IMG/VR virus record: IMGVR_UViG_3300021127_000026
Span: 1 to 30,654 of that record
Reading direction: 5' to 3' (one strand)
DNA from: a virus
DNA length: 30,654 bases
This document shows, piece by piece, positions 1 to 30,654 of the stretch. The position numbers were made by a program, and so were the translations under genes. A model generated the notes under the pieces. The model was not told where the DNA came from and searched no databases. It saw only the letters and a program-made list of their open reading frames with translations. Position 1 is the stretch's first letter; the number at the start of each line of letters is the position of its first letter.

Positions 1-89
1 ATCTCCTGCCTCTATGAGGACTTTAAAAGTTATAGTAAGTTGGATTACTTATATAAGTTAATCCATTAAAATAATATATACATGAAATT
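1..89. repeat. 89-nt terminal direct repeat, left copy
   Basis: Bases 1-89 are identical to bases 30566-30654, the last bases of the window. Such an exact end overlap is usual for a contig that an assembler closed into a circle, but it could also be a dispersed repeat at which a larger genome broke. The repeat contains a Shine-Dalgarno-like AGGAG on the minus strand and the AT-rich element ATGTATATATTAT (minus strand), so it is the upstream region of the leftward gene at 30105-30560. Joining the ends places this region cleanly between that gene and the terminator at 129-166. Confidence 0.95.
71..83 (-). promoter_or_regulatory. Candidate promoter element ATGTATATATTAT
   Basis: The minus strand reads ATGTATATATTAT. 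The same 13 bases occur at 30636-30648 (same repeat) and at 23144-23156, 33 bases upstream of the leftward start at 23110. A near copy lies at 4602-4613 upstream of the intron endonuclease. All four read on the minus strand. The core TATATTAT resembles the AT-rich TATATTAC element reported for phiKZ early promoters; that it is a promoter here is inference. Confidence 0.35.
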
Positions 90-128
90 TTTTTTGAATC
101 CATTTTTAGATAAAAAAAAAAGAAATAA

Positions 129-166
129 TATACAGGGATGAGGATTATAATCCTCATCCCTGTATA
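129..166 (-). terminator. Palindromic terminator of the RNAP-holin operon
   Basis: A perfect 38-base inverted repeat (arms 129-147 and 148-166, no spacer). On the minus strand it follows the holin-like gene by 13 bases and is followed by TTATTTC and ten T, the layout of an intrinsic terminator. It closes the leftward operon that begins with the beta' gene at 10573. Confidence 0.85.
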
Positions 167-179
167 ATTAATTAAATTA

Positions 180-461
180 TTATTTTACATCAGCACTATT
201 ATCTGCAGGTACGGTAGTATCAGTTACTGCAGGAGTGGGTTCTGTCGATTCTTTAATTTTCAGGCCAGCACCGACTGCAGTTAAGAATGCGCCTGCTGCG
301 CCTAAAAAGTTCCATACGTCAAAATGTTGACTAGTATAAACATTGTAGCCTTCATAAATGATCGCTGCAAAGGAAAACAATAAAGCCAACCACTTTACTA
401 GGTCATGTGTTTCATTATCTTTGCCAGTTAATATATGGCTAATTGGATGATTTTTATCCAT
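180..461 (-). CDS. Putative holin-like small membrane protein
   Basis: A 93-aa protein with a short polar N-terminus, a hydrophobic helix at about residues 22-42 (KWLALLFSFAAIIYEG), a short turn, and a second Gly/Ala-rich helix at about 51-68 (FLGAAGAFLTAVGAGLKI), then an acidic Thr/Pro-rich tail. Two helices, small size and a charged tail fit class II holins, but no family signature proves this. It is the last gene of the leftward RNAP operon, ten bases downstream of the 240-aa gene, and is followed at once by a strong terminator. TAGGA precedes ATG 461. The GH19 endolysin is far away at 25839-26645, so there is no lysis cassette to support the holin call. It could equally be an unrelated inner-membrane protein. 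Confidence 0.6.
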   Translation of the reverse strand: MDKNHPISHILTGKDNETHDLVKWLALLFSFAAIIYEGYNVYTSQHFDVWNFLGAAGAFLTAVGAGLKIKESTEPTPAVTDTTVPADNSADVK

Positions 462-470
462 AATTAATTC

Positions 471-1193
471 CTATTGTCTTAAGATGTCTTCAATAGATTC
501 ATTTCTTTCACTCTTATTAACTAAGGCTGATGTTAAACCTTCATTAAAATGAGCACCTAGTAACTTAGCAGTGGTATTACTACTTTGATAAGCTACGGAT
601 TTTAATGGTACAAAGATAGGTTTAATTTTGCTATGAGGATCATTAAGTCTTGGATCGTGTCTAAAGAATTTAGCCCTATCTTCTTTTTGTCTGCACATAG
701 CCACAGTTAATAATTCTAGTAGTGCAGCATCAGCACCTAATTTAGCATTACCATGACTTAATGCAGTTTCAAATAAAACTGCATGATCTTCCATAGTAAT
801 GTACCAAGGCACTTTACCTTTAGAAATAATCTCATTATAAATACGATATACTAAGGTACCAATTCTAATGAGATTAAGATTCTTAATAATGGTATCGCCT
901 GCAATAAAACCAAACTCTAAATATTTCTCACCATGGATATCCACTGTATTGGTAGTACTTGGTTTAATTTCCATTAAGGTACAAGCATTACTAGTTGCAT
1001 AATACTTGTCATCAACCGTCATACCGAAGATACCTACAATTCTAATAACATCATCAATGGTACATAGACTAGCACTTGTATAATGTTCAGGAATATATAT
1101 CTTACAAGGATGAACAGCTACTAATGAATCACCTACTTCTTTACAAGCAGCATGAACTTTAGCAGCATCTCGAATTAAGTGATTAACATTCAT
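471..1193 (-). CDS. Conserved-type hypothetical protein of the RNAP operon (240 aa)
   Basis: I do not recognise a family. The protein is a mixed alpha/beta, soluble chain with no signal peptide or membrane segment. It has four or five scattered Cys residues and a basic stretch near residues 170-185 (CRQKEDRAKFFRHDPR). ATG 1193 lies only three bases after the TAA of the 459-aa gene, so translation is probably coupled; there is no strong Shine-Dalgarno. Its place in the same transcript as the virion RNA polymerase genes suggests a virion or early-infection role, but that is position only. Confidence 0.8.
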   Translation of the reverse strand: MNVNHLIRDAAKVHAACKEVGDSLVAVHPCKIYIPEHYTSASLCTIDDVIRIVGIFGMTVDDKYYATSNACTLMEIKPSTTNTVDIHGEKYLEFGFIAGDTIIKNLNLIRIGTLVYRIYNEIISKGKVPWYITMEDHAVLFETALSHGNAKLGADAALLELLTVAMCRQKEDRAKFFRHDPRLNDPHSKIKPIFVPLKSVAYQSSNTTAKLLGAHFNEGLTSALVNKSERNESIEDILRQ

Positions 1194-1196
1194 CGT

Positions 1197-2576
1197 TTAT
1201 ACCGACATACTTACAATCTGTGATTTTAACCATCTAGCAATTAATCTAATGCACGCAATGTATAAGGCATAATCTAGATCAGGCTCTTTCATTTCATGTA
1301 AGATATTATCAATTTCTAATAAAATATCTTTTACATCAGATCCTTCAGTTAATGTTCTAGAAACTACTTTAATAACATATTGTACTAGATATTTAGCACC
1401 ATGATATTCATGCTCTAATGCAGCAGTTAATCTTAATTGCATGGCAGCTTTATCAACACCTTCCATACCCATAATTAGTGTAGCCATGTAATCTCTGGTT
1501 ACACGTCTTACTAGAGTAATATCTTCCAGTGTTTCTTTAGCCTTTAATTGATTAATTTTCATGGTATAGATATCTGAATACTTTTCTGGATTATTTCTTA
1601 AATCCAGATCTCTATCTATAGCTGATGTATTGCCATGGGTAGATAAGAAACCTAAAGCAGCTTCAGGACTACCGCCTTTGTTTTGAATCCATTCTCTGTA
1701 GTTTGGACCATAAACCATTAGGCAATTGCGAGCTAAGTAATCAGTATCGTTAAAACTTACTTTAGCTAAGATTTCACCATTAGAAATAGATCTATCATAA
1801 GCTAGTGTATCTCTATAGATCTTACCGGCAATAGCAGCTCGCAGTTTAGCGACCAATGCTCTTAAAGCAGTATCTTCCATTAAAGCTGAACACTTATCAG
1901 TTTTTTCATTTTGTATTCCAGTTAATAATAGGAAATACAAAATAGATCTAGGCAGGCTTAACTGCGCCGTATCAATAGCATCTGGAATCGTTCTAGCTTC
2001 AGAGATAATATCTTTAAGATACTCAGTCGCCTTAGCGTCCAGTAAGTTAGAGCCTGTTTTAATTAGATCTTCAATTTCAGCTGAGGTAAAATCTTCAGCT
2101 AATCTTTTTGATAATTCATAACATTCAGACGATACAAAAGGAATAGTATCTTTATAAGGATCTAATAACTGAGTAAATAATTCATCAGTTAAAATACTAG
2201 GCATTTCAATTAACTTAATATTGCCCAGTAACCCTACGCTAGCTAAAGCACTTTCTTTTCTAACCTCTTCAACTTCTTTAACAATTGCTCTGCAATGGGG
2301 GTTGACTACATTCTTTGCTGTATCAATAATGTTTCCCATCACAATAGCAATCTTTTTAACACAGGCGGTTTCATAACCTGAATGTGTACCAAATGTATTA
2401 TTGCCTTCAATTGATAAATCCATAATCCTTTCATCAGTCCCTGTATCATTAATACAAGTTAATGTTTTAAAGATAAGATCTAATGCTGAGGCTTGTACCG
2501 GCATCAGTGCTTTACCACTATAAGTAGCTGCACTGACAATATGACTTGTTTCATTTAAAACCTTTCTGGTAATCAT
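1197..2576 (-). CDS. Hypothetical protein of the RNAP operon (459 aa)
   Basis: An unrecognised, largely helical soluble protein. Long amphipathic helices occur at about residues 85-120 and throughout the C-terminal half. No catalytic motif is visible. I looked for the missing C-terminal half of RNAP beta' (trigger loop and bridge-helix-like segments) and did not find it here. AAGGAG sits well placed before ATG 2576. It lies 13 bases downstream of the 67-aa gene and three bases upstream of the 240-aa gene. Candidate roles are a virion structural protein or an RNAP-associated factor; neither is shown by the sequence. Confidence 0.85.
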   Translation of the reverse strand: MITRKVLNETSHIVSAATYSGKALMPVQASALDLIFKTLTCINDTGTDERIMDLSIEGNNTFGTHSGYETACVKKIAIVMGNIIDTAKNVVNPHCRAIVKEVEEVRKESALASVGLLGNIKLIEMPSILTDELFTQLLDPYKDTIPFVSSECYELSKRLAEDFTSAEIEDLIKTGSNLLDAKATEYLKDIISEARTIPDAIDTAQLSLPRSILYFLLLTGIQNEKTDKCSALMEDTALRALVAKLRAAIAGKIYRDTLAYDRSISNGEILAKVSFNDTDYLARNCLMVYGPNYREWIQNKGGSPEAALGFLSTHGNTSAIDRDLDLRNNPEKYSDIYTMKINQLKAKETLEDITLVRRVTRDYMATLIMGMEGVDKAAMQLRLTAALEHEYHGAKYLVQYVIKVVSRTLTEGSDVKDILLEIDNILHEMKEPDLDYALYIACIRLIARWLKSQIVSMSV

Positions 2577-2589
2577 TAGTATACTCCTT

Positions 2590-2793
2590 TTAAACAGCTA
2601 GTTCAGATAATAAAGCAGCGGCTACTAATTCTTCAGTTTCACTTTCTGCTAAAGGAGATTTACCTATTTTATCACCAATCATTTCTTTTAAAATAGCAGT
2701 CCCTAATGAGACTGCACAAGCGATTGTTTTCTTAGTAATGATTTGTTTTTCTGGTAACTTTTCTTCTACTACTAAATTTAGATCATCCATCAT
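2590..2793 (-). CDS. Small hypothetical protein downstream of RNAP beta (67 aa)
   Basis: An acidic 67-aa protein with a Lys-rich turn (residues 13-22) and a helical, Ala/Leu-rich remainder (IACAVSLGTAILKEM). The start codons ATGATG follow directly on the TAA of beta exon 2 (2794-2796), and the AGAGGA in the beta tail can serve as ribosome binding site, so expression is tied to the spliced beta message. No family recognised. The juxtaposition suggests a small partner of the polymerase, which is inference from position. Confidence 0.75.
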   Translation of the reverse strand: MMDDLNLVVEEKLPEKQIITKKTIACAVSLGTAILKEMIGDKIGKSPLAESETEELVAAALLSELAV

Positions 2794-3003
2794 TTATCCT
2801 CTTTTATATTTTAAACCCATTTGTTTAGAAAGCTCTTTTAGTACGGTATTCATAACACCCATAATTTCTGGAGAAACTACGATACGTGCAGCAACGGCAT
2901 AAAATCCAAATAAAGCATCGACTTTAATGCCATTTCTAGCAATAATGGGTGAGGTAGAAACTCGGCTAATAGTAGATTTTAACTGATTAGCAAACACGAC
3001 TTT
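2794..3003 (-). CDS. Virion RNA polymerase beta subunit, exon 2
   Basis: This exon gives the last 69 residues of the beta polypeptide after removal of intron 2. Reading starts with AAA at 3003 (Lys of the GDK loop) and continues KVVFANQLKSTIS, which lines up without a gap against KMAGRHGNKGVIS of bacterial beta; the downstream KVDALFGFYAVAARIVVSPEIMGVM matches the region after it ([20 protein letters not shown]). The exon then stops, so the C-terminal beta clamp is absent here and is encoded separately at 26655-27320. A naive caller would report a 67-aa gene from GTG 2997. Joined to exon 1 the protein is 1330 aa. Confidence 0.85.
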   Translation of the reverse strand, partial: KVVFANQLKSTISRVSTSPIIARNGIKVDALFGFYAVAARIVVSPEIMGVMNTVLKELSKQMGLKYKRG

Positions 3004-3335
3004 CCTTTTTGTTCCATTAATTCGTTAGATTAATGCGGTGTGCAAAGACACCCGCCCTTACTTTCATAAGGGAGCAGATCATATCATCCACCTATTTGTA
3101 GGTGGTTTCCCATTTCTTCCCACTTGGGGTCTACAGGGTGGTAAGCCCTTGATCGTTGAACGTTCTCCATGTATTCTAATGAATATTTAGGAGCTTCGCT
3201 GCTGATTGCCCAATCTTTATTATTTTTAAACATTCATATTTCTTTTCAAAAATACAGTAGTTAATAAAGCTCTAAGGGATTTCCAGCAATTAAGGAAAAA
3301 CGAATATAATATTACTATTATACCGGACTAATTAT

Positions 3336-4565
3336 TTAATTAAACAACTCTTCAATGATCCAGCCATTATATGGCATTTTATAATGTAATCTATTTTTAA
3401 GGGTCTTTTTATCTAAACCTAAATATTTACGTAATGTTGCCGAGCTATTGAATTTTAAAATTTCATTATCTTTTATGTTAGTTATAATAAAATTTCTGGG
3501 AACAGAATGTTTAACTGTATAAAAGTTATCTAACCATTCTTTATCACTTTTAGATCTAAAAATAAAATTACCAATAGCAGTTTGCCGTTCAGAATAAACA
3601 GCTTTACGTACCATTGAAATATCAGTATTTGTTATTTTAGCCAGAGTGGTTGCATGTTCTGCATGTATTATTTCACCAGTTTCAATATTTTTAGCTTCAT
3701 ATCCGTTTGTATTCTCAATTATTTGATTTCGTTTTTCTGGTGTAGTGTAATACCATTCTGTAGTGTCATTGATATCTTTAATTTCAAATCTTTTACAGAA
3801 TAGTCTAGGTATTAAAATGCCATTAATTAATTTCTTAAATGGTCTGTTATGGAATTTTAATCCAATACTTTTAAACCCAGCAGTGTGAGAATGGTACTCA
3901 GTTATAGTATTATTTAAATAATCTCGTATAACACAGCGCTTATTATCAGTTCTTAAATTGCTAATAAAGGCATGATTATTATTTTCTCTTGGCGTAACCC
4001 ATTCCAAATTAATTATACGGTTATCTAATTTATTACCATTTTTATGATTAACATAAATTTTGTTACTTATATCGCTATTATATATAAATGCTTTAGCCAT
4101 CAGCAAATGTGTACATACGGGACGCCATCTATTTTTATCAGGATCCCTAATATTAACACATGGATATCCATAAGGATTTAGTCTTATACTCATTTCTAAA
4201 TCTTTATTTTTATATAACGAAATAACTTTACCATTCTTATTTATAGCAAAATTAGTAAAACCAGGAATTATTCTAAACCCATTCTTATAAAGAATAGGGT
4301 TAGTAAAATACATTACCATACCACATCTAACCTTTAATACCCTGCTAGTTATTGGCATAAATTTTATTTTAACTAATTCATTAAGGGGTAACTTTACATC
4401 ATAATGGCATAATAAACTAACCCATGTTTTATCCAATTGCACTATTTCACCAGAAATTTCTATATCAATAAATTGATCGTTTAAAACTATATCTTTTCCC
4501 TTAAATCTATAATTTCCATTAATATCAAATGAATGGTCTTCATTAAGATAAAATTTTTTATACAT
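3336..4565 (-). CDS. Intron-encoded HNH homing endonuclease (409 aa)
   Basis: A homing endonuclease carried by intron 2. The N-terminal 90 residues are unrecognised. Residues 103-140 (FTNFAINKNGKVISL...) look like a NUMOD4-type segment. Residues 150-200 hold the HNH fold: H153, NH at 173-174, N182, and the typical LEWVTPRENNNHA end. The C-terminal half has repeated NUMOD-like DNA-binding units (IETGEIIHAEHATTLAKI; IKDNEILKFNSSATLRKYLGL). Such enzymes cleave intronless alleles near the insertion site to spread the intron. ATG 4565 is preceded by a weak AGG and, 37 bases up, by the ATATATTAT element. It appears intact. The last codons overlap the AGTTGT sequence proposed as the intron guide. 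Confidence 0.92.
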   Translation of the reverse strand: MYKKFYLNEDHSFDINGNYRFKGKDIVLNDQFIDIEISGEIVQLDKTWVSLLCHYDVKLPLNELVKIKFMPITSRVLKVRCGMVMYFTNPILYKNGFRIIPGFTNFAINKNGKVISLYKNKDLEMSIRLNPYGYPCVNIRDPDKNRWRPVCTHLLMAKAFIYNSDISNKIYVNHKNGNKLDNRIINLEWVTPRENNNHAFISNLRTDNKRCVIRDYLNNTITEYHSHTAGFKSIGLKFHNRPFKKLINGILIPRLFCKRFEIKDINDTTEWYYTTPEKRNQIIENTNGYEAKNIETGEIIHAEHATTLAKITNTDISMVRKAVYSERQTAIGNFIFRSKSDKEWLDNFYTVKHSVPRNFIITNIKDNEILKFNSSATLRKYLGLDKKTLKNRLHYKMPYNGWIIEELFN

Positions 4566-4601
4566 GTTATTTAACCTATAAATGATTGAATGTGTGTATA
4601 A

Positions 4602-4613
4602 ATAATATATATC
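4602..4613 (-). promoter_or_regulatory. Candidate promoter for the intron endonuclease
   Basis: The minus strand reads GATATATATTAT, nearly the ATGTATATATTAT element at 71-83 and 23144-23156. It lies inside intron 2, about 37 bases before the HNH start codon, and could give the endonuclease its own transcript independent of the RNAP operon. Based on similarity only; AT-rich DNA makes chance matches likely. Confidence 0.25.
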
Positions 4614-4644
4614 TTAAAGAAATTTGTGTTTATTAAAAGGAATA

Positions 4645-7600
4645 ATCACCGCAATTCATTGGCAGCTCACCATCTATATAGATTTTAATAGCCAATTGAT
4701 TTTCTACCACTTTCTTACCTGCTATTCGTACCGTCTCATCTATTCGTCCAGTCTTAGCTTCATCTAATTGATATCGCTTTACACGCTTAGCTCTATTGGA
4801 GTCATAATACTCTGCAATCTTTTGCAAACTAAAATGCATATCATCTATTTTTCCATAGTAAACCACTTCAATATCAGTTACTTTACCATAGACTTTAGCT
4901 TTCGGATTATTAGCGTTAATAGCTGTTAAAGCCTTAATAGCTGCGGCATCTTTAGCATCCACATTCTCGCCAATAGCCTGCTCTAAAGTACATAATATTG
5001 TTTCAGGGTCCACTACATCACCTATTTTTACTAGGTTATGAATGATGGTATCAAAGTCTACTATTACCCCGTGCAGAGTCGTTGTAGGCGTTACTAATTT
5101 ACTAGCCAGTTCACTAGTAATAACTGATCCATCTTCAGTAACATCCATATTTTCTACTAAAGCTACTTTACAAATTAAGCTGCCTTTATAGACAACATTT
5201 CTAGGATTTATTTCTGATCTTTGAAAGAATCCAGAGTTAAAGACTAATGCATCACCTTTTTTAAACTGATGTCCTTTCTTTAAATCACTGATTCTAGTAT
5301 GAGGTATAGTAACACCCGATACAGTACCATGATAAATACCTAATTCATAATTAACCAGTCTATCTTTACCATACTTAACAGTTAAAACATCTTTTTTATT
5401 ATCTTCTACAATACCATCTTCTTCTGCAGTAACAACAAAGATATCATCTGCTTTAGCACCAATGACTTCTTCATAACCTGTTCTATAATGACTAGGATGA
5501 TATCCATTGCAGGCAACTGTATGACTATCCTGAATGCCTTTATAATTTACGCGTTTACTATCATCGTGACTTAATGAAACACCAGCTAGGGTGGTACTAC
5601 TTAATGCATTAGTGGCCCCATCTTTCTCATGATTAAATTCTCTAGTAACTCCTCTTAAATTGACAAAGTTAGGATTAGCTGTAAAGTATGCTCTAATACC
5701 TACCTTAGCACTATCTGGAGTAGACTCCGATATAACACCTAAATCCTTTTCATTATAAGCTCTAGTCTCCTTTACCATTGTTTCAGCAGATCTACCACCT
5801 GCGCCGCCATGAGTAAAAGATTCATGCTCCTTTAGATTGTGCAGTGGATTACTTTCTTCTACTAATGATACTGACTGATCTTGAATGATATCTAGCCAAA
5901 CCGATTTAGGATTAATAGTCACACCCACATTACTCATACTACCACCTGCCCTGTGAGTACGCATAGCAGTAATCAATTGATGGTATAACAAGCCCGATAG
6001 TCTTTCATAACCTTTATACCTAACTGCATTTAAATCATGTACAAAGTCATCCACTAATAAGCTATTAGCTCTTAATAATAAATGATAAAAATCAGTAGGC
6101 TCTCCCATCTCCTTTAATAGATTAAGAGTAATGGGTTCCATCCACATATCAAACATTAGTTTTAGTTCTCTTAAGTGATAATTAGTGACACCTAATCCAC
6201 TCATTAAACTACTGTAAATATTAGGTCTATTAAAGTCACTTCCTTTATATTTAGAGATATCATTTTTAATAGCCAGTAATCCACCGACTATTAATTTATC
6301 TGCAGGTTTAGTTACTGTAATAACGTAGACGATATCTTTAAACTTTAGTTTAACTTCATCTGGATGATAAGCTAATCTTACATTAGTTGCTGAGAGTGTA
6401 AAAGGTATTTGTAATTTCTTTAACATCTCATCTAAACCAAAGAGATAAGAAAAAGCTAGGCCTAATGGAATACGTCTATTAAAGACTGACATTTCAGAAT
6501 ATTCAATAGGTCCATTACCTAATGATGGATCTATTAAATAAGGTATAGTGCCTAATTCCTCAATTGAATCAGCTTTGGTGGATCTAATACCACTACCCCA
6601 GAATGTATAAACAGTCCCCTCATTATCCATTCCTAATAAACCTAATCCGCCAATTAACTCCCCAACTACCACGCAGTCTTCATCCTTAATTTTTTCATAT
6701 AAAGAATGATCGTATTCATGTAATTTCTTTTCTATAGCAAAGTCTAAATGATATTGGAATCTAATAATTCCATCTACTAAAAATCTTCCACAGTCAAAAC
6801 TGGTAATTGCTTCACAAATAGCCGTATAAGCTCTAGGTAATTGCAGATTCTTTATTTTATTAATACCATAGAGTAGATTACCAATAGTTCCATCATTTTT
6901 AGTAAATCTATTTATAATCTCTTTTAAAATCCATTTACTGTAGTTACTTGCTACACTTTCATTTCTAGTAACAAATATCTTTCCATAATAACTAGTCAAA
7001 GAAACAGTATTAGATTTTACCTTAAAAATTGGAAGTTCTCCGCGCTGACTAGTTAAAGAATAGCGTATTCCACCAGCTACGAAAGTACCATCAGCATTAA
7101 CTACTGGTATAGTAAAATGAATAGTACTCGCCTCCCCATTAATAGGTTGCAGTGATACACTGTAGGTATCAGATTTAGTAACTGCATTATTCTTTCTTTT
7201 TACTTTAATATCCTTTACTATTACCCCACCTTTGTGTAAATTTAACACTGTGGCTATAATATCTTTAGGCAATACTTCAGTAACGTATTTACTCGTAAAT
7301 TCTTTCATGGTAGAGTGTAGCATACTCTCATCATGAATAGTAATACTTTCATCTAATAATTTAGTATCAGTAATAGTTAAATCATTATCGGTAATTGCCA
7401 TTTCCTCTAGTGTCTTGCCAGAGCCATGAGGGTCTAATATTGTCTTATACTTTTGACTGAGTTTTAATAATCCTTTTTGTTCAGCTTCAGATAGAGCACC
7501 CATTTCTCCAGCTTCTTTAATCTTCCTTACAATGACTTCGTTAGATACTAAATCATTTTCCCCTAAGTCCTTATCATTAATATCTACAATGTCTGGATTG

Positions 7601-8427
7601 TTAGGTGTTCTTAAAGCTACTATACCATCCAGAAAGTGATATAAGCTATTCATGCAGACTTCAGGATCTTCATGTGACCAATCTAATAGATCCTTTAATC
7701 TAATGATAATAGTATTATTTAACTCTACAAAGACTAGATTAACATGTTCGATCGCTTCATCAGATACTTTAGTAATAACTGATTCAATACTAGGGTTAAT
7801 GATTCTCCATAATTCTAATAAGTCAAAACTCTCATTAGTGTGAAAATCTGCTAGTCCATTACTCGTAAAGTTCTTAGTATATTTACTTAAGTCAGATCGA
7901 GTAGGCAATATCTCTGGCAGTAGATATCTAATAAAGTGCTCTCTCCTACCACCAATCTGATTAATCATATCCCACATAGTCAGTCGAATGTTATACCATT
8001 CTTGATAGACGACTAAGGTATTATTAGTATACTTATTTAATCTAGGCAATAGAGCATAGTTAATAACAATAGGGGCACTATTGTTACTTAATGACCTATC
8101 TAGATTAGTCAATGGTTTAATATTTAGATGTGTTTTTTGATATCGTCTGATAACATTATTAATAGGTATATTGGTGCTACTTACATTGCCAATACCTACC
8201 TTTAAATGTAGCATGTGATAAATATAGATTGGGCTACTATTTCCATTTCTAATTAAACAATAGGAGTTGTCTATCCCTACTGTTTGATCAGTTTCCCCAA
8301 TATAGTGAATAACACTATTACTGGGTAGAAAAAACTGACTCGATGGATTATGTTTACCACCATTGACTATCTTACCAATGGGATAAGTCAAAAACTTTTT
8401 ATCCCATTCTTTTATTGGTAAATACAT
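4645..8427 (-). CDS. Virion RNA polymerase beta subunit, exon 1
   Basis: Exon 1 codes for residues 1-1261 of a phiKZ-type beta subunit (N-terminal and catalytic parts). Near residues 850-905, DIIQDQSVSLVEESNPL, HGGAGGRS and GVISESTPDSAKVGIRAYF follow the bacterial order FMDQTNPL, ALGPGG, CPIETPEGPNIGLI; near 950, HDDSKRVNYKG matches HDDADRALMG of the second active-site region. The exon ends LAIKIYIDGELPMNCGD, equal to LAVKRRIQPGD just before the catalytic Lys, which comes from exon 2. Read through without splicing it ends YSF-stop at 4633. ATG 8427 has TAGGAG, which overlaps the stop of beta'. In phiKZ the beta parts are gp178 and gp149; this would be the gp178-like part. It is expected to be packaged in the virion to transcribe early genes. 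Confidence 0.9.
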
Positions 8428-8436
8428 TACTTACTC

Positions 8437-8601
8437 CTATTCATATATTTTAGTAAAGCTATTGAGCACGAGTGGACTAACTTTATCAATAACTCCGTAT
8501 AATAATCCGCCACTAGGATTCATAAATGATTTTTTATTATTCATAAACTTTTTAGCTTCCTCTACCGCTTCTTTTGAGATTACAAAATTTAGAGAGACTT
8601 T
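8437..8601 (-). CDS. Virion RNA polymerase beta' N-terminal subunit, exon 2
   Basis: A 54-codon exon too short for ordinary gene callers. It opens with AAA GTC at 8601 and reads KVSLNFVISKEAVEEAKKFM then NNKKSFMNPSGG, which aligns gap-free with [20 protein letters not shown] then MSTNNILSPANGE, the bacterial segment directly after DFDGD. It ends at TAG 8437-8439, where the stop is part of the TAGGAG ribosome binding site of beta. With exon 1 it makes a 540-aa subunit. The beta' C-terminal half (phiKZ gp80-like) is not in this window. Confidence 0.88.
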   Translation of the reverse strand, partial: KVSLNFVISKEAVEEAKKFMNNKKSFMNPSGGLLYGVIDKVSPLVLNSFTKIYE

Positions 8602-9115
8602 CGATTTGTTCAGATGAAGTCGTTAATTTCACCTCGCAGCATTACCTGCAGCTATAACTCTCGTTATAGACCAGACTATATCTTCTACCTATTAATATAT
8701 TCATTAATATACCAATAGGCAGCTTCCCATTTCTTCCCACTTGGGCTTTACACCGTGGTTAGCGGTTAGTCGTTGAACGTTCTCCATGTATTCTATAGAA
8801 TATTTAGGAGCTTCGCTGCTGATTTTCTCTACCTAATAGTTTTCAAACATTGGTATTACTTTTCAATAATACAGTAGTCTATTAGTCTAACAAGATGTTC
8901 CAGCAATTAAAGAAGAATCTATCCCAGTATTACTACTGAGTAGGACACTGATACTTAAACTATTTTATACTTAAAATGCCAATCTGAATTAATGGGTATT
9001 CCATTTAGATTCCTAATAATAGCTTTTCGGTTTATTCGAGTAACACCTTCAGCCATTTATAAGTATTACGATAAAAAAGTATTCAGAAAAATAAGTACAA
9101 CTAGAATAAGCTAGA
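8602..9115 (-). ncRNA. Group I intron 1 in the RNAP beta' gene
   Basis: A 514-nt group I intron between the last Asp codon of DFDGD (9116) and exon 2 (8601), with terminal G at 8602. Landmarks shared with intron 2 are TTAATTGCTGGAA (near 8905), GCAGCGAAGCTCC (near 8818) and GGAGAACGTTCAACGA. P7 is GACTA (8771-8767) with TAGTC (8678-8674) in the classical AAGATATAGTC setting. P8 is a long hairpin (CTGCCTATT... to ...AATAGGTAG, 8722-8685) and a CTATAAC-GAGA-GTTATAG hairpin follows. AGTTGT at 9102-9097 can pair with exon GUGAU plus the first intron U to form P1 with a U-G at the splice site. It carries only a short endonuclease remnant. Confidence 0.9.
8955..9056 (-). pseudogene. Remnant of intron endonuclease DNA-binding tail
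   Basis: A 33-codon reading frame inside intron 1: MAEGVTRINRKAIIRNLNG followed by IPINSDWHFKYKIV. The pattern of a small helix-turn-helix followed by NLNG...S...FKY is typical of the NUMOD-type C-terminal units of HNH and GIY-YIG homing endonucleases. No nuclease domain precedes it, and a stop codon lies directly before its ATG, so it looks like the leftover of an endonuclease gene lost by deletion. Confidence 0.6.
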
Positions 9116-10573
9116 ATCACCATCGAAATCTGCTTGTAATCCTTCGGGTTTAGAACTGTGTACCGATACTGAATCTATAAAAGGTTGTCCTTTAATAGGC
9201 ATGTTTATAGCCTTAGATTCATTTTCTACAGGACACCAATTATCATCCAATCTTTGCAGAATTTCTGTTTTTACTGTTGTTTGCAGGTAAACCATACTGC
9301 AGTAAATACTGCCTGTACCTACAATGGGATATCTTGTTATATAGGTAGCTACTTCTTTACTTTGTAGATAAACGGAAATATAAAACATTTCAGTCCAAGT
9401 AATAGGTGCTACATTCTTTCTATCTAAACGTTTAGGTAAATCAGTAATGTCATAAAAGACCCTAAAGTATTTATCATCCCTATAAAGCAATGCTGCATAA
9501 TGACCATCTATTATAATAGGCTTATGCCTTGCATCTAATTTAGCATAACCAGTTAATAGTTTTTCAATACCTTTTTCACTGCCCCAATTATCTTTAACAA
9601 AAGTAGAAGGTGTAATCATTCTTTCTTCTAATGTCTTGCTATCGACTACCCAGATATCATTAGGTAAGTTATTGACTATTCTATTCATTGGACCTGCTTT
9701 AATTCCATAGATAGATAGCTCAGTAGTACCCTTTAAATACTGGTGTAAACCACAGGTTGTATCATTAACAGTAACTGCATCTATATCGCCTAATTTCTTA
9801 GGAGCAGGATCAATTGCAGTGATTACATTTCGTGTTCCGCCATGAATACTGCGGCTTGCCCATTTGGATAAGAAGAATCCTCTTTTACCCTCAAGGATAG
9901 ATTCTATGTAATCATAGATGTTATTAAATCCTAATTGGAGAGACCATCTAACAGTATCTAAGATGGGATCATTTTTAGCGGTAGAGAAAGTAGAAATAGT
10001 ATTAGCAGATCGCATGACTTTTCTATAAAGCGCGTTAATGTCATCTTCAACAGTTCTTTTATTTTCATCTATTTCAATGTCTCTAAGACCTGCTGGAATA
10101 ACGACTAAATACCGATACATACATTTTTCATGAGACTTATCTAGAAACTTAATTCTTAAATCTCTAATCGGTGAATTATTTTCAGCATGTAAGATATCAT
10201 GAAAGTGTTCCATAAAGAAGGCATAACCTGTTCTGCCATCTATGATATTAGATTTTACAAAGTCTTTTAGATTATTATCCCAAGTAGCATAAGCTGCTCC
10301 AGACATAATAAGTTTATATAAACCTTTTAATCTAGTGAGTTCTAAAAAGACTTTAGGATGCATGACTTCAGTACGCATGTCTATATAAGACAGTCTTCTT
10401 TGTCTAGTAGGTGATCCAAGATCACCAAAGATAATAGATGAATATAAACCTTGTGGATTAAATGATCCATCAATGGTATAAATATCCATTGACTGAGTAG
10501 GCAGTAAGCCTGCTAATCGACTCTTATCAGGAGAGAGTAGATATAAATTAAATGGTAATCGCTTGAGTGCCAT
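9116..10573 (-). CDS. Virion RNA polymerase beta' N-terminal subunit, exon 1
   Basis: The first 486 residues of the beta' N-terminal subunit. Near residue 240, SRSIHGGTRNVI matches the bacterial GKRVDYSGRSVI. The exon ends at the catalytic loop QADFDGD (D482, D484, D486), whose three Asp residues hold the catalytic Mg2+ in all multisubunit RNA polymerases. Unspliced reading ends four codons later (SSLF-stop, 9101). ATG 10573 has AAAGGA. It is the first gene of the leftward operon, back to back with the rightward virion gene at 10615, 41 bases away. The phiKZ counterpart is gp180, near gp178 and the virion muralytic gp181, an order seen again here. Likely enters the cell with the DNA as part of the virion polymerase. 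Confidence 0.92.
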
Positions 10574-10614
10574 AGTGTTTCCTTTTATAAATTTAAATAG
10601 AGCTAGGTGGTATC

Positions 10615-13600
10615 ATGGCTAAGAATAAAGAATTTGATTTAGAAAAAATGGGTGAAATGGATGACGATAAATTACTCAATGCATTAGAGGCTGCCTTTGG
10701 TGATGACGATGATTTATTTGATACAGAAATTAAAGATAATAGAAAACCGACTACAGTTATTAAAGATACCATAGTCGATGCTTTCTCTGGTACGGATAAT
10801 ATCTTAAAGGTAACTAAGTCTCTTATTAAAAGAGCATTGCCAGATAGCTATGGTGATACCATGGATACACTTGAGAATGTATCCAGGGATGTTAAAGATA
10901 CTTATGACGATACTGTTTATAAGTTAGAGCCTGCTATTAATAATGTTAAATTAGGCATTAAAGGTGCTCTTCCTACTATAGAAAAGATACTGCCTGCGGG
11001 AATGGCTAGAAAGATTAAAAAGTTTGCAGAAACTGCAAATGAACAACCTTATTCTGACTATAGTAAAAAGGATTATCAGGGTGAAGAAATTAGTAATACG
11101 ATTCAAACTATCTTTGGTGCTGAAGTAGCAGAAAGAGAAGTTAGGGAACGTAAGGCTAATATACATAGGAATATTGACAGGACTATAAATAAAAAACAGT
11201 TTAAAGTCAGTGCTACTCTGCAAACCCATATGGCTAACAATATAGGTCGTATTGTTAGTTATCAAGATGAAGTATTAGATAAGTACTATAGAAAATCTTT
11301 AGATCTTCAATACCGTTCATACTTTGCTTTAAGATCATTATTAGATCTAAAGAAAGATGAAGTAGTTTCTAATAAGATTCGATTTGATAATATCATTAAA
11401 AATACTGGTTTACCAGATATTGTAAAAAGTAGATTAAATGAAGATTTTAAAACAGAGTTAAGAAATAGATTAATTGGTAGAGTACATGATGATTTAGCTA
11501 CTCGATTAAGAAACTTACCAACTAGAACGCGTGATAGATTAAAAGAAACTATTCGTGGGATAGTAGAAGGTTTTTCAGGTGCTGCAGAAAGTAGTGTTTC
11601 ATTAAATGAACAATTCTCTGGCTTGCCATTAGGTGAAATGGCTAAGATGGAGGGTGGGGATTTTGCCAGACATCATCTAGGTGCACAAATTGGTAAAAAG
11701 TTTAGAGATACTATACCTAAATATTTAAATAAAGTAAATCCAAACATTTGGGGATCTATTGAAAACTTTGGTAATACTCTAAAAAGATACCATTCTGAAT
11801 GGCCAGGTTATTTAAATAGAAAGTTTGGTGAAGGTAAAGGAATACTAGGTCAAATAGGTACTCTAACAGGTACTGAGTTTGGCGATACAAACACTATTAA
11901 TAATAGCTTAGTAGCTGATGCTACTACTGCTACACCTTGGGATACATTATCTAGAAGAACTCTAGTAGAAATTATTCCAGGTTATTTGTCAAGAACTTTA
12001 AATGAAATATCTGGCATACATGCTTTATTAGCCGGTAAAGAAACGCCCAATGAAGTAGTTTATAGCCATGAGTTTGAAGACTTTGTTACTAAAAAGAAAG
12101 CATTAAAACAAATAAGAAAAAGATTTAGAGGCACAATAGGCAGTGGATTGAAAGATAAGATTAATGCTATTATTGATATAGTAGATCCAGATGGCACTAA
12201 ATTATCTGAAAGTGAAAGAGTAGAATTAGGTGGTATCATTGTAAAGGAATTAAGAAAAGGTAATAACTTTGATCCTAGAGATTTTGCTGATCCTTATAAT
12301 TTAGACACACCTAAAGCAGAAAAATATGCTCAGTTATTTAGGGATACTTTTAATATAACTGAAGAGATGGTAGAAGAAGATGGCTTTTTAACATCTAAAC
12401 TACAAGTAGGTGGTGCGGGGGAAGCTAATCTTAAACATAAAAATGCTGCTTTACTATATGGTGAGGCTAGAGGTAGTTTAGGGAACTACAATGCTTTATT
12501 AAATGAATATTTTAAAACAGGCAATAAATCATTACTGCGTGAGTTAGGTATTTTAAAAGAAGAAACTGGAACACTCCATGTTAATAATGACTATAAAAAT
12601 AGAGATATTAGAGAATGGTTAAAATTAGGTAATAAAGGTAATTATACTGCTGAGGCAAAAGCCTATTATGAAGGTACTGATACTACCATGGGTCCACCAA
12701 AGCCATCACAAACATTTGCAGGATTCCAATTAGGTGGATTAGGTGAAAAAATAGATAAAATAACGCATGAAGAAACTTTAAGTAAGTTATACAAATTAAC
12801 AGAAACTAATGATGATAAGAAATTAGCATTATTAGAATCTATTAATGATAGATTACTAAATTTTGGTTATTTTACCCCACCCCATGAGTCATCTGAAAAT
12901 ATTAATGCTTCCCACGGTTCAGTAACTGTACGAACTAGTAGAAGAAAAAATAATCAAAGAACAACCATTCCTGTTAATCAGCCTACACCTGCACCAGCTA
13001 CACCATTTTCTATTTATGAAATGATGCAAATGGTAAAAGATTATGGTGGTAAAATGTCATTGCATGATGCTACTGGTTTAATGAATAAGATAGCAAATGC
13101 CGGTGGTTATTTAAATACCTCTAGTACAACTATTCGCAATTTATTAAAAAGAGTTACTAAATCCACTGCTAAAGAAATGAAAAAGGCAGATGCATTTAAT
13201 GCCACTGGTCATCCTGCTATGGGAAAAACATGGGCTACTCCGGTACAACATCAATTTAATTATGACTTTACTACAGGCACTAAAGAGTCTACTAGTAAAG
13301 GTAATGATAGAGAAATGCCTAAGGTTTATAAAATTCCTAATGGGAAATATCTATACCTTCATGATAAATTAACGGGTGAGTGGAAAGTTAGGGATTCTGA
13401 AACCGATGAACCTTGGATGGATATCGAAAAGCCTGATGCAGAGCTAGTTAAAAAGTTTGTTCCCGCAGACAAAGAAAAACCTAAATCCTCTAGTACCAAG
13501 GCTAAAGGTGGTACTAAAGAAGAAAATGTAAAAAAACTTCGTAAAGGATTAGCAGGTTTATTTATAGGTACAGGTAGATTAGTAAGAAAAGGAGTTAGAG

Positions 13601-16236
13601 GTTATTTTAAAGCTTTAATGCCTGCTAAAAAATATATCAATAAAAAAATTGATAATGCAGCAATTAAAGTATTTAAAAAGGTATTAGATCCAACAGGCAT
13701 GTTTACCAGTATGTTTTCTTCTATATCGGCTACAATAGGTGAAATAATTGAAAGAAGAGATGATCGAATAGATTTTACACTGCACTCTATTTTAGATTAT
13801 TTAAAACAAGCTATACCTGGAAAAGATTCTGAAGAAAAAGAAGCTATGCGTGAAGGTGGCTGGAAAAGTATACAAGAACATCGCAAGCAAAAGATGGAAG
13901 AAAATAAGAAAAAGAAAGCTGAAGAAAAAGCAGAATCAGATTCTAAATGGAAAGGTGCTCCAAAAAACGATACTGTTGGTAAAGTAGGCGGTTTTATGGA
14001 TAACATCCTTAGTAAAGGATTAGACTTTATTAGTAGTTTAGGAATACCAGAATTACTAGGTGGTGTAGGCGCATTTCTTGGTGCTACTAATATAGGTAGA
14101 ACTGTAGTGGGTGCTACAGAAGCTTTAGGTGGTTTAGTTGCAATGGCTACAGAAGGTGCTATTGCAGCAATGGCTACGTTAGCTATGCCTGAAGTAGCTA
14201 TGATAGCGGGTACAGTAGCTGCTGTGGGTGCAACAGCTTATGCGGCCTATAAAGGATATGAAGCATTAAATAGAAGGCGATCTTTAGATAGATTAGAGAA
14301 AATACGCTTTATGCAATATGGTATTCCATTAGATAATGGAAGAGCTATTGGTAAAGTTAGATTCTTAGAAGAAACTATTGATGACGTTTATACCTTTGGA
14401 TCAAATGGAGCCGCTAAATTAAAGTTAAAGCTACAAGAAATTTGGGAAAAATATTATTCAGATTTTGATTGGAGAGCTGAAGATGAACGTGGGGCTAAAG
14501 CTTTTATGGATTGGTATATTAGACGATTTGTACCAGTTTATGTTAAGCATAGAACTGTAGCTAGTATCTTAAAAATTACTTTAGATGAATTAGATTCAAC
14601 ACTTAAAGATGAAGATCTATCTGCTTATGTTAAAGCTATTCAGTTTGGACCTAAAGATAAAGAAGGTAAATTAGATCCTTATAACATTACTATTTCTCCT
14701 TTTAGATATTATTCTTTGGAAAATAGACTCGAAACATTAAGTCTCTATTGCCAGCAGTTAATTATTGAGGGCGATAAAGCTAATGAGGGAAAAGATGATG
14801 CCTCTAAAAATAACTTAGATCCAAAAGAATTATCTAAAGCAGTTACTAGTACACCTGGTAAAAGAAAAGAAAACGAAGATAAAAAAGTAGCTGATGAAAA
14901 CTTAAAGAAGGTTAATGCGGTTAATGAATCCGAACAAAAAGAAGCTAAGAAAGAGCAAGAGAAATCTACTCTAGAAAAGATATCAGATTTTGTTAAAGAT
15001 AAATTTGGTGTTGATGTTCCTGCGGCGGCTAATAATGTTAAAAACTTTGTTGGTAGAGTGGGTGAAGATTTAGCTGTGGGCGCTAAAAAGTTACCAGGTG
15101 CAATTGGTGGATTTGTTAATACCAAGATAGTACAGCCTGTTAAAAATTCATTAGCTGGATTAATATCTGGACATGAATCGGGTGGTAATTATGATATTGC
15201 TAATCGTGGTAATATTAATGGTCATAACTTAGGTATATCAACTGCTAAAGTAAGTACCATGACTATTGGCGATATCTTAGCCGCTAATAAGAAATCGGCT
15301 AGTGACCCATCTAGAATTTTGGCTGCTGGTAAATATCAGTTAATTACACCTACATTAGCTGATGCTGCTAAACAATTAAATTTACCAATGACCACTGTAT
15401 TTGACAAAAAGACTCAAGAGTATATTTTTGCTAAATACTTATTAGGCATTAAAGGAAATACTAAGCTCCTTAATGCTTATATAAAAGGTAGCGATGTAGA
15501 TAAAATGAAGATGATGAAAAATCTAGCCAGAGAATGGACTAGTATTGCTGATCCTTATACGGGTAAAACAGCTGGCGGTGCTGGCAATAAAGCATTTGTT
15601 ACCGCAGATCAAGCATTAGCAACTATTGATAAAGCTAGGGCTATGTATGCTTCATTTAAAGAAATGGGTTTATCAGATGATGAAGCTTTCCAGCAAGCAG
15701 TAGCATCTGATGGAACTAATGTTCCCTTAACTAATTTGGCAGGCTCTGCAGCTAAACCTGATGCTGGTAATGGTGAAATGGTTCAAGCTACTCCTCCAAA
15801 AATAGCTGCACCAACACTAGCCAATGGCGCTAATAATTCTGTGGCTAGTAATGTTATTCCACCACCCGCTGCTGCTCCTAATGTAGATAAATCTAAGACG
15901 TTAGAAGCTGCATCGGCAGACAATGCCAAATCTACTAATACGGTGGCCGTTAATAATTCTAGTCCTGCACCTTCCGCTGGTCCTAGAGCTAATAACTATC
16001 CAGATCTTACACATGTTAGTAAAGCTATTAATAGTACATCTGCCGATGCCAATAAACAGCGTGATGCTCAAATAGCAGAACAGCAAAAAACTAATATGTT
16101 GTTAGCTCAACTCACTGATAGTTTAACAGCTAGTTTAAATGATAAGAATATACCCACTACATTGATGAAACCGTCAGAAAGTCCTGTAGTAAAACAAAAA
16201 GTAAATCCTGTTATTAATTTAGCAAGAAATATTTAA
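10615..16236 (+). CDS. Giant virion protein with lysozyme-like muralytic domain (1873 aa)
   Basis: A very large, mostly helical and charged protein. Residues about 1145-1216 form a long Gly/Ala-rich hydrophobic stretch able to interact with membranes (GAFLGATNIGRTVVGATEAL and on). Residues about 1512-1680 form a lysozyme/transglycosylase-like domain: ISGHESGGNY with probable catalytic E1521, AAGKYQLITPTL, and a following helical part ending near MYASFKEMG. The C-terminus is Ala/Pro/Asn-rich with a coiled-coil-like segment. This is the architecture of the phiKZ gp181-type virion peptidoglycan hydrolase, which opens a local hole in the cell wall during DNA entry. AGGTGG precedes ATG 10615. It is divergent from the RNAP operon and followed by a palindrome at 16244. 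Confidence 0.85.
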   Translation: MAKNKEFDLEKMGEMDDDKLLNALEAAFGDDDDLFDTEIKDNRKPTTVIKDTIVDAFSGTDNILKVTKSLIKRALPDSYGDTMDTLENVSRDVKDTYDDTVYKLEPAINNVKLGIKGALPTIEKILPAGMARKIKKFAETANEQPYSDYSKKDYQGEEISNTIQTIFGAEVAEREVRERKANIHRNIDRTINKKQFKVSATLQTHMANNIGRIVSYQDEVLDKYYRKSLDLQYRSYFALRSLLDLKKDEVVSNKIRFDNIIKNTGLPDIVKSRLNEDFKTELRNRLIGRVHDDLATRLRNLPTRTRDRLKETIRGIVEGFSGAAESSVSLNEQFSGLPLGEMAKMEGGDFARHHLGAQIGKKFRDTIPKYLNKVNPNIWGSIENFGNTLKRYHSEWPGYLNRKFGEGKGILGQIGTLTGTEFGDTNTINNSLVADATTATPWDTLSRRTLVEIIPGYLSRTLNEISGIHALLAGKETPNEVVYSHEFEDFVTKKKALKQIRKRFRGTIGSGLKDKINAIIDIVDPDGTKLSESERVELGGIIVKELRKGNNFDPRDFADPYNLDTPKAEKYAQLFRDTFNITEEMVEEDGFLTSKLQVGGAGEANLKHKNAALLYGEARGSLGNYNALLNEYFKTGNKSLLRELGILKEETGTLHVNNDYKNRDIREWLKLGNKGNYTAEAKAYYEGTDTTMGPPKPSQTFAGFQLGGLGEKIDKITHEETLSKLYKLTETNDDKKLALLESINDRLLNFGYFTPPHESSENINASHGSVTVRTSRRKNNQRTTIPVNQPTPAPATPFSIYEMMQMVKDYGGKMSLHDATGLMNKIANAGGYLNTSSTTIRNLLKRVTKSTAKEMKKADAFNATGHPAMGKTWATPVQHQFNYDFTTGTKESTSKGNDREMPKVYKIPNGKYLYLHDKLTGEWKVRDSETDEPWMDIEKPDAELVKKFVPADKEKPKSSSTKAKGGTKEENVKKLRKGLAGLFIGTGRLVRKGVRGYFKALMPAKKYINKKIDNAAIKVFKKVLDPTGMFTSMFSSISATIGEIIERRDDRIDFTLHSILDYLKQAIPGKDSEEKEAMREGGWKSIQEHRKQKMEENKKKKAEEKAESDSKWKGAPKNDTVGKVGGFMDNILSKGLDFISSLGIPELLGGVGAFLGATNIGRTVVGATEALGGLVAMATEGAIAAMATLAMPEVAMIAGTVAAVGATAYAAYKGYEALNRRRSLDRLEKIRFMQYGIPLDNGRAIGKVRFLEETIDDVYTFGSNGAAKLKLKLQEIWEKYYSDFDWRAEDERGAKAFMDWYIRRFVPVYVKHRTVASILKITLDELDSTLKDEDLSAYVKAIQFGPKDKEGKLDPYNITISPFRYYSLENRLETLSLYCQQLIIEGDKANEGKDDASKNNLDPKELSKAVTSTPGKRKENEDKKVADENLKKVNAVNESEQKEAKKEQEKSTLEKISDFVKDKFGVDVPAAANNVKNFVGRVGEDLAVGAKKLPGAIGGFVNTKIVQPVKNSLAGLISGHESGGNYDIANRGNINGHNLGISTAKVSTMTIGDILAANKKSASDPSRILAAGKYQLITPTLADAAKQLNLPMTTVFDKKTQEYIFAKYLLGIKGNTKLLNAYIKGSDVDKMKMMKNLAREWTSIADPYTGKTAGGAGNKAFVTADQALATIDKARAMYASFKEMGLSDDEAFQQAVASDGTNVPLTNLAGSAAKPDAGNGEMVQATPPKIAAPTLANGANNSVASNVIPPPAAAPNVDKSKTLEAASADNAKSTNTVAVNNSSPAPSAGPRANNYPDLTHVSKAINSTSADANKQRDAQIAEQQKTNMLLAQLTDSLTASLNDKNIPTTLMKPSESPVVKQKVNPVINLARNI

Positions 16237-30104: not shown

Positions 30105-30560
30105 TTAATATATCCATTCTATTAAATTTTCCTCACTGACCTCAAAACCTACTTCCCGATCTCCTTCTTTCCAGAGGTTGGTTAAGACCTCCTTACCGCC
30201 ATTTGGATGCTCAAGTGTTAATTCCGTTACTTGACGTTTTCCGTCATCAATGAAAATATTACTTACAACCTTTAAAATGTTGTAGGTAATTCCAGCATTA
30301 ACACTATCCCGAAGATCCATTATTAGATCCCCAGGTTTAAAGTTACTTTCGTTCATTACATTGTCGTAATCAACGAATGAATTCTGGAACTGATCCTCCC
30401 CCCCCGTATTTGTAATGAAAAGAGTTTTTGTTAAAATCTTTTCATTGTTCCCCTCGCCCGTGAACATATGGATACAGCCAATGACCGCGTTATCGGATCC
30501 AGCATAGTACCCCTTCTCAGAAAAAGGAAATAATTCTGTTTTGATTTTTATATATTTCAT
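30105..30560 (-). CDS. Hypothetical protein of foreign codon use (151 aa)
   Basis: No family recognised. The protein looks beta-rich and acidic, with KPGDLIMDLRDSVNAGITYNI in the middle, which resembles a small barrel. Codon use differs from every other gene here: Gly is often GGG, Glu often GAG, Thr often ACG, Arg CGG or CGT, whereas neighbours use GGT, GAA, ACT/ACA and AGA. A run of eight G on the coding strand (30398-30405) falls in Gly-Gly codons. AGGAG before ATG 30560 comes from the terminal repeat. Recent acquisition, together with its upstream region, is the simplest reading. Confidence 0.75.
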   Translation of the reverse strand: MKYIKIKTELFPFSEKGYYAGSDNAVIGCIHMFTGEGNNEKILTKTLFITNTGGEDQFQNSFVDYDNVMNESNFKPGDLIMDLRDSVNAGITYNILKVVSNIFIDDGKRQVTELTLEHPNGGKEVLTNLWKEGDREVGFEVSEENLIEWIY

Positions 30561-30565
30561 ATCAA

Positions 30566-30654
30566 ATCTCCTGCCTCTATGAGGACTTTAAAAGTTATAG
30601 TAAGTTGGATTACTTATATAAGTTAATCCATTAAAATAATATATACATGAAATT
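30566..30654. repeat. 89-nt terminal direct repeat, right copy
   Basis: Identical to bases 1-89. This copy lies directly upstream of the leftward gene 30105-30560 and provides its ribosome binding site (AGGAG) and the ATGTATATATTAT element at 30636-30648 on the minus strand. See the left copy for the two explanations, circular closure or dispersed repeat. Confidence 0.95.

Follow-up and report, generated by a model that had tools for sequence, protein, structure and literature searches.

The β′ and β genes of a virion-type RNA polymerase (RNAP) lie head to tail on the minus strand of IMG/VR virus record IMGVR_UViG_3300021127_000026, whose 30,654 nucleotides (nt), analyzed here as a whole, we call the window. 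Each gene is interrupted in a putative catalytic loop by a group I intron; the two introns are related, and both sit at the same 12-base site, GGTGAT↓AAAGTC (arrows mark insertion points throughout). We consider it probable that both introns are self-splicing, that the one in β′ is the resident, and that the one in β combines an HNH endonuclease from a lineage tied to the β site with a ribozyme patched from the introns of the phage’s own genome. An earlier, sequence-only reading of this DNA had recognized the two related introns at one site and had suggested that an intron moved between the two subunit genes. The first point stands; the second is not supported in that form, as the endonuclease has its sister in another phage and the ribozyme core is a mosaic. 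The same phage is represented by a 220-kb record, IMGVR_UViG_3300021142_000002 (G001), which has the same arrangement, with five differences over window positions 1–14581. Like other IMG/VR records, this one may lack parts of the genome or contain assembly errors.

Both genes match multisubunit RNAP families, β′ as PHROG 2986 (E = 2.9e-164) and β as PHROG 3148 (E = 0). Exon 1 of β′ is an open reading frame (ORF) of 486 amino acids (aa) ending in ADFDGD (9116–10573), followed by a 514-nt intron inserted at FDGD↓K (8602–9115) and by exon 2 (8437–8601; 54 codons plus stop, beginning KVSLNF). Exon 1 of β (4645–8427; 1261 aa, ending in CGD) is followed by a 1641-nt intron inserted at GD↓K (3004–4644) and by exon 2 (2794–3003; 69 codons plus stop, beginning KVVFANQ). 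A T precedes and a G terminates both introns. Joining 9116 to 8601 and 4645 to 3003 produces GGTGAT↓AAAGTC in phase 0 in both genes, leaves open proteins of 540 aa for β′ and 1330 aa for β, and restores ADFDGD↓K and GD↓K, respectively. In alignments of seven proteins, the invariant residues include D484, G485, and D486 of β′, several positions of its second exon, and G1260, D1261, K1262, N1267, Q1268, and K1270 of β. We take DFDGD in β′ and GDK in β to be catalytic loops, as these motifs are in bacterial polymerases. Profile searches against solved structures matched β′ to the β′ of a phage (7s01, E = 1.9e-16 for the chain) and β to a bacterial β (1iw7, E = 9.9e-9), with the loop stretches aligned as DFDGD/DYDGD and GDK/GDK. 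On their own, these stretches score low (4.5 and 0.2 bits), so the naming of the loops rests mainly on the motifs. On paper, then, both loops of the virion-type polymerase would need splicing to be whole, as the sequence-only reading had it.

The identity between the two junctions is exactly 12 bases, with the next base on either side differing, and comparison of the β and β′ proteins gave no significant match (best E = 0.10), in line with the claim that the exons share no other notable similarity. Since the junctions are identical and in phase 0, joining the β′ 5′ site to the β 3′ site would give an in-frame β′-β fusion of 555 aa. The uninterrupted 12-mer is absent from the window; the 220-kb record holds no exact copy and three places with one mismatch. 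We also looked in that record, which is possibly incomplete, for intact copies of β′ or β and found none, only one interrupted copy of each. Separately, GGTGATAAA occurs uninterrupted at window positions 2668–2676, in a small ORF (GDKIGK) that lies immediately downstream of β.

Next, we compared these sites across a survey of 174 loci (given L numbers), made up of the window, 13 named phage records, and two best-80 IMG/VR lists, drawn from 140 and 179 relatives. The loci were picked by similarity to the window and related proteins and merged only if a short key was identical, so that counts are not natural frequencies. The β′ and β sites agree at 12 of 12 bases in two of 126 loci (89 distinct pairs), the window and L027, and the next best agrees at 9/12; loci with an interrupted β′ loop were left out of this count, except for the window and L027, which were added by hand. 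Across genomes, none of 7832 12-mer comparisons reaches 12 (best, 11), and an earlier count over 63 loci agrees with that over 126. L108, which falls outside the count with its interrupted β′ loop, shows 7/12 when read by hand.

Within the DFDGD stretch, β′ is interrupted in 22 of 129 distinct genes, all of which contain an intron-core profile match, and an intron follows DGD in five of the 129 (the window, L027, L108, L119, and L121). The β′ junctions were read in the window, L002, L027, L064, L108, L111, L119, L121, and L277; other introns were placed by the break in the profile. The β gene is interrupted at GD↓K in one of 115 distinct genes, that of the window phage, and also in L195 (contig IMGVR_UViG_3300046096_000189), a locus outside the survey that was found through its HNH gene and has an intron at the same position with the junction GGTGAT↓AAAATT. 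Of the remaining β breaks, 17 lie at HDD↓S or a few profile positions from it, and two other places account for 7 and 4. L027 has a β′ intron with a whole HNH gene and an uninterrupted β GDK site. The 12-mer of L027, GGAGATAAAGTA, is found both at its occupied β′ site (840–2713, after joining) and at its empty β site (7460–7471), and the L027 HNH may have a second target in its own genome. Two further observations concern these genes. Positions 624 and 625 of the β profile flank another intron site (L017, L018, L063, L067, and L083), where the three HNHs compared form their own clade. In L108, a 3.4-kb stretch (8277–11674) lies between β′ and β, which are close together in most surveyed loci.

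The β′ intron matches Rfam RF00028 at 77 bits, above the cut-off of 50. The β intron is 78% identical to it over 222 nt, and we identified the β intron as group I from this similarity and from a covarying fold shared by 18 introns. A 64-pair core, including the P3/P7 pseudoknot, was drawn by hand on the β′ intron and its pairs were counted on the 18 related introns. The cells are paired at 88.1%, versus 67.7% in shuffled and 37–48% in slid alignments, and none of 500 shuffles was as high. Changes on both sides are seen in 50 of the 64 pairs, and paired cells reach 100% in P7 and 98.1% in P3. The core spans 8603–8951 (P2 to P9) in the β′ intron and 3006–3332 in the β intron; the intron-core profile has five matches in the 220-kb record. 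The guide starts with GUCC, pairing with GAU↓, in seven of nine introns compared, and the guide helix of the β intron has two further intron-side pairs. The P1 loop of the β intron holds the HNH gene, which follows the 5′ splice site and precedes the guide. From these features, we infer that both introns are spliced at GGTGAT↓AAAGTC.

The core of the β intron is a mosaic relative to other introns of its own genome. The 220-kb record encodes a second, non-virion RNAP, whose β′ gene has three introns (437, 411, and 353 nt) at QRN↓PSL, NAD↓YDG, and YDG↓DEM. Through P4-P5, the β intron is like intron 2 of this gene at 88 of 89 positions, versus 62 of 89 for the virion β′ intron, and an 81-nt run is identical between the β intron and intron 2. 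Through P5′-P6-P7, the relationship reverses, with 48 of 50 positions like the virion β′ intron versus 32 of 50 like intron 2. At the 3′ end, the nearest is L108 (59/81, versus 43/81 for the β′ intron). The informative sites flip from 26:0 to 0:16 (Fisher test, 6e-12, with segments chosen by eye), and a maximum-chi-square permutation test of the β intron against the own-genome introns gave p = 0.0002. With the β′ intron as query, two triplets gave p = 0.06 and 0.66, showing no mosaic. An exact 26-mer of the shared P5 segment was found at two places in IMG/VR, both in the same phage. The β and β′ introns are thus not each other’s closest relatives along their whole length, as segments differ in their nearest relative, and this segment-wise likeness indicates an exchange of RNA core segments between genes rather than the copying of one whole intron. 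A phylogeny of 43 intron cores places the five introns of the phage in neighboring branches, along with those of L027, L108, L180, and one of L064. Recombination within the core undermines a tree of this kind, and we did not use it for ancestry.

The endonucleases give a different picture. The β intron contains the gene for a 409-aa HNH homing endonuclease (3336–4565), with an HNH nuclease domain (Pfam HNH_3, PF13392, E = 5.1e-8) and a match to PHROG 59 (E = 4.6e-28). A close search with this protein alone returned only the same phage. With a two-sequence HNH alignment as query, we took the best 80 of 505 relatives and examined three (L195 to L197), which is how L195 and L196 were found. The HNH at the β GD↓K site of L195 is the sister of the window β HNH, with 34% identity over 419 aligned positions, 241 bits, and a support of 0.954; other matches are the non-virion β HNH of L196 (134 bits) and the β′ HNH of L027 (106 bits). 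HNH clades mostly track the insertion site. As its sister sits at the same β site, the window β HNH belongs to a β-site lineage, and ordinary homing from another phage is the simplest and, on these relationships, most likely source of it. L027 had seemed to be the nearest HNH when 26 other sequences were compared, a placement that reversed when the three L195/L196 sequences were added. The L196 HNH (3913–5816, contig IMGVR_UViG_3300025234_000001) lies in an intron of non-virion β, near the loop that is cut in phiKZ at HGG↓KG.

The β′ intron retains only a remnant of an HNH gene (8955–9056; 33 codons plus stop). Thirty-one of the 33 codons match the C-terminal end of the L027 β′ HNH (67.7% identity, E = 8.1e-12; the next match has E = 0.17). 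In the 220-kb record, the ATG of this stub is ATA (the difference at 9054), and three of the five differences between the two records (9035, 9054, and 9073) lie toward the 5′ end of the β′ intron, in its decayed part. With only a stub left, the β′ intron has lost its own mobility gene. Taken together, the relationships of the cores and of the HNHs indicate that ribozyme and endonuclease have different histories and that ribozyme parts were exchanged within the genome.

We therefore favor the following scenario. Each intron would fold into the usual P3-P9 core and be cut from the mRNA, joining GGTGAT to AAAGTC. The β′ intron would be the resident, now immobile, with its endonuclease decayed to a C-terminal stub. 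The β intron would have come from another phage by ordinary homing, with a β-site HNH that presumably nicks its target. The ribozyme of this intron would then, or at entry, have been partly overwritten by recombination with the resident virion β′ and non-virion β′ introns, which offer long similar stretches. The shared 12-mer may be in part a consequence of GDKV in both loops of this clade and of guides that accept GAU↓. DGD is followed by T in 107 of the 143 readable β′ loops that are uninterrupted or were added by hand, by M in 24, by R in 7, by Q in 1, and by K in 4, the last being the window, L027, L085, and L109. L109 (DGDKV) and L085 (DGDKN) have no intron there, and K is also read after DGD in L111, with its intron at AD↓, and in L108. 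We had considered co-conversion, in which the AAAGT of β′ was copied from β along with the intron, and dropped it as unnecessary, because K occurs at this position without an intron.

Several results weigh against this scenario. In the β intron, the covariance model that recovers the β′ intron gave no match, even with E values as high as 1 allowed. Pairing on the exon side of P1 is weak: both introns form three contiguous GAU/GUC pairs with the exon and then a mismatch. The segments of the mosaic were picked after seeing the alignment, and the permutation test corrects only for where the breakpoint was placed. In the same test, intron 2 of the non-virion β′ gene also comes out as mosaic (p = 0.003, against the β intron and intron 1), so that donor and recipient of the P4-P5 stretch are indistinguishable. 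Furthermore, the β core is only 59% identical over 185 nt to the L195 core at the same site and is nearer to the own-genome introns, which is unlike plain homing without later exchange. Among the endonucleases, the HNH of L119 at GD↓R groups with HNHs of AD sites, an exception to the tracking of sites. The sister HNHs are only 34% identical, making the relationship old, and given the resemblance to L196 and L027, an ancient jump of the β HNH between subunits is possible.

The leading alternative is that the resident β′ intron moved with its HNH into β within this genome, through the shared GGTGAT↓AAAGTC, after which the β′ copy lost the HNH. In its favor are the same 12-mer in both genes, its recurrence in L027, where the β′ site is occupied and the β site empty, and the near-identity of the two introns through P5′-P6-P7. 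The L027 β′ HNH is colinear with the window β HNH at 28% identity and was the sole match to its N-terminal 95 aa among 26 other HNHs, before L195 and L196 were added. We nevertheless regard this route as unlikely. The L195 sister at the β site scores far above L027 (241 versus 106 bits), P4-P5 derives from neither partner of the supposed jump, and the β′ stub is far nearer to the L027 HNH (68% over 31 aa) than the window β HNH is (28%). A second alternative is reverse splicing, in which free intron RNA entered the β mRNA at a site matching the guide and was then reverse transcribed and recombined. The common GUCC guide that pairs with GAU↓ would suit it, as would the related introns at several RNAP sites with a T before each junction read, yet the β-site HNH lineage accounts for the target without it, and we give it very little weight. 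Finally, errors of assembly or pseudogenes, with the polymerase genes dead or intact elsewhere, hardly deserve consideration: the window record does stop at a 99-bp repeat and the 220-kb record may be incomplete, but the latter has the same arrangement with interrupted copies only, both exons of each gene are open and conserved, and L027 (β′) and L195 (β) have introns at the same positions.

The DFDGD loop of these phages also contains very short exons. Within 18 nt of this loop, insertions occupy five positions (N↓AD, AD↓F, FD↓G, DG↓D, and GD↓K), sometimes two together. In the non-virion β′ gene of the window phage, a 9-nt exon, TATGATGGT (YDG), lies between the last two introns (L011 7930–6607; G001 at about 106.6–107.9 kb). 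The virion β′ gene of L064 (about 6419–8746) has two introns around a 9-nt exon, TTTGACGGT, and that of L121 (7456–9366) has two around a 12-nt exon, TACGACGGCGAT. In the virion β′ gene of the L195 phage (L277, reverse complement, about 3410–4200, IMGVR_UViG_3300046096_000189), the exon is the 6-nt TTCGAT, giving AD↓FD↓GDTMS. All four are flanked by two nearly complete core matches, preceded by G, and end in T. We suggest, tentatively and with less than even confidence, that the DFDGD loop is nearly saturated with introns and holds genuine microexons, and that the introns of one genome form a recombining family while their endonucleases are tied to sites. If so, microexons of 6, 9, 9, and 12 nt would encode catalytic residues and need splicing at either end, a guide helix as short as three to five pairs would permit such dense insertion, and ribozyme parts would be traded between the two polymerases. 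The orf142 gene of Twort is reportedly another multi-intron phage gene with small or skipped exons.

The phage is related to the jumbo phages that form a nucleus. The homologues of its virion-type β′ and β in phiKZ are gp180 and gp178, both annotated there as head structural proteins, and we class the window genes as virion-type for that reason. The two genes are adjacent, in a phage with a chimallin match, as would be expected of the virion RNAP of a chimallivirus. That chimallin match is a single one in the 220-kb record, to residues 478–584 of the 626 of phiKZ gp54 (E = 5.7e-9). The two ends of the window (1–99 and 30556–30654) lie in a direct repeat of about 99 bp, of which the 220-kb record has two copies some 30.5 kb from each other; the window record probably ends at this repeat for reasons of assembly.

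Comparable introns are known from this group of phages. In phiKZ, gp179 lies in virion β′, gp56 in non-virion β′, and gp72 in non-virion β; these are HNH-type genes in introns at RNAP catalytic loops, as in the window, and the phiKZ β′ intron is 70.7% identical to the window β′ intron over about 305 nt. None of the phiKZ sites is GD↓K, however, as they are AD↓FDGD (virion β′), N↓ADFDGD (non-virion β′), and FHGG↓KGV (non-virion β), and the gp178 β gene of phiKZ is uninterrupted, unlike that of the window. The available portion of Birkholz et al. (2024, PMC11620839) describes PhiPA3 gp210, an HNH in a putative group I intron of the virion RNAP β gene of a nucleus-forming phage, which nicks the empty site of phiKZ gp178. 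Like the window β intron, it combines an HNH gene with a group I intron, placed in a conserved part of virion RNAP β. It differs in its site, which the available text puts after two conserved aspartates aligned with Escherichia coli D675 and which we read as HDD↓S rather than GD↓K, and in that this portion of the account concerns a single intron, without a second subunit or a mosaic. Several group I introns per gene, with an additional small exon and exon skipping seen by sequencing, are described for phiNIT1 and SIOphi in the accessible part of PMC11878797, which deals with other genes and other phages. The accessible parts of PMC12908238 and PMC7598289 deal with the use of homing endonucleases as weapons and with polymerase genes that are split, and that of PMC3984707 reviews ectopic routes of introns. 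Across the available portions of mainly open-access texts, our literature search found no report of GD↓K introns in these polymerase genes, of DFDGD-loop microexons, or of a mosaic of this kind.

The introns of this phage separate two histories that are usually lumped, that of endonucleases bound to their sites and that of ribozyme cores recombining within one genome. They offer a concrete case of two essential genes presenting the same intron target, and the family supplies naturally occurring examples of very short exons flanked by ribozymes. The case also bears on a proposal quoted in the available part of PMC7598289, that the polymerase genes of jumbo phages became split when mobile introns entered them and were later deleted. 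As parasites, such introns may swap parts inside one genome.

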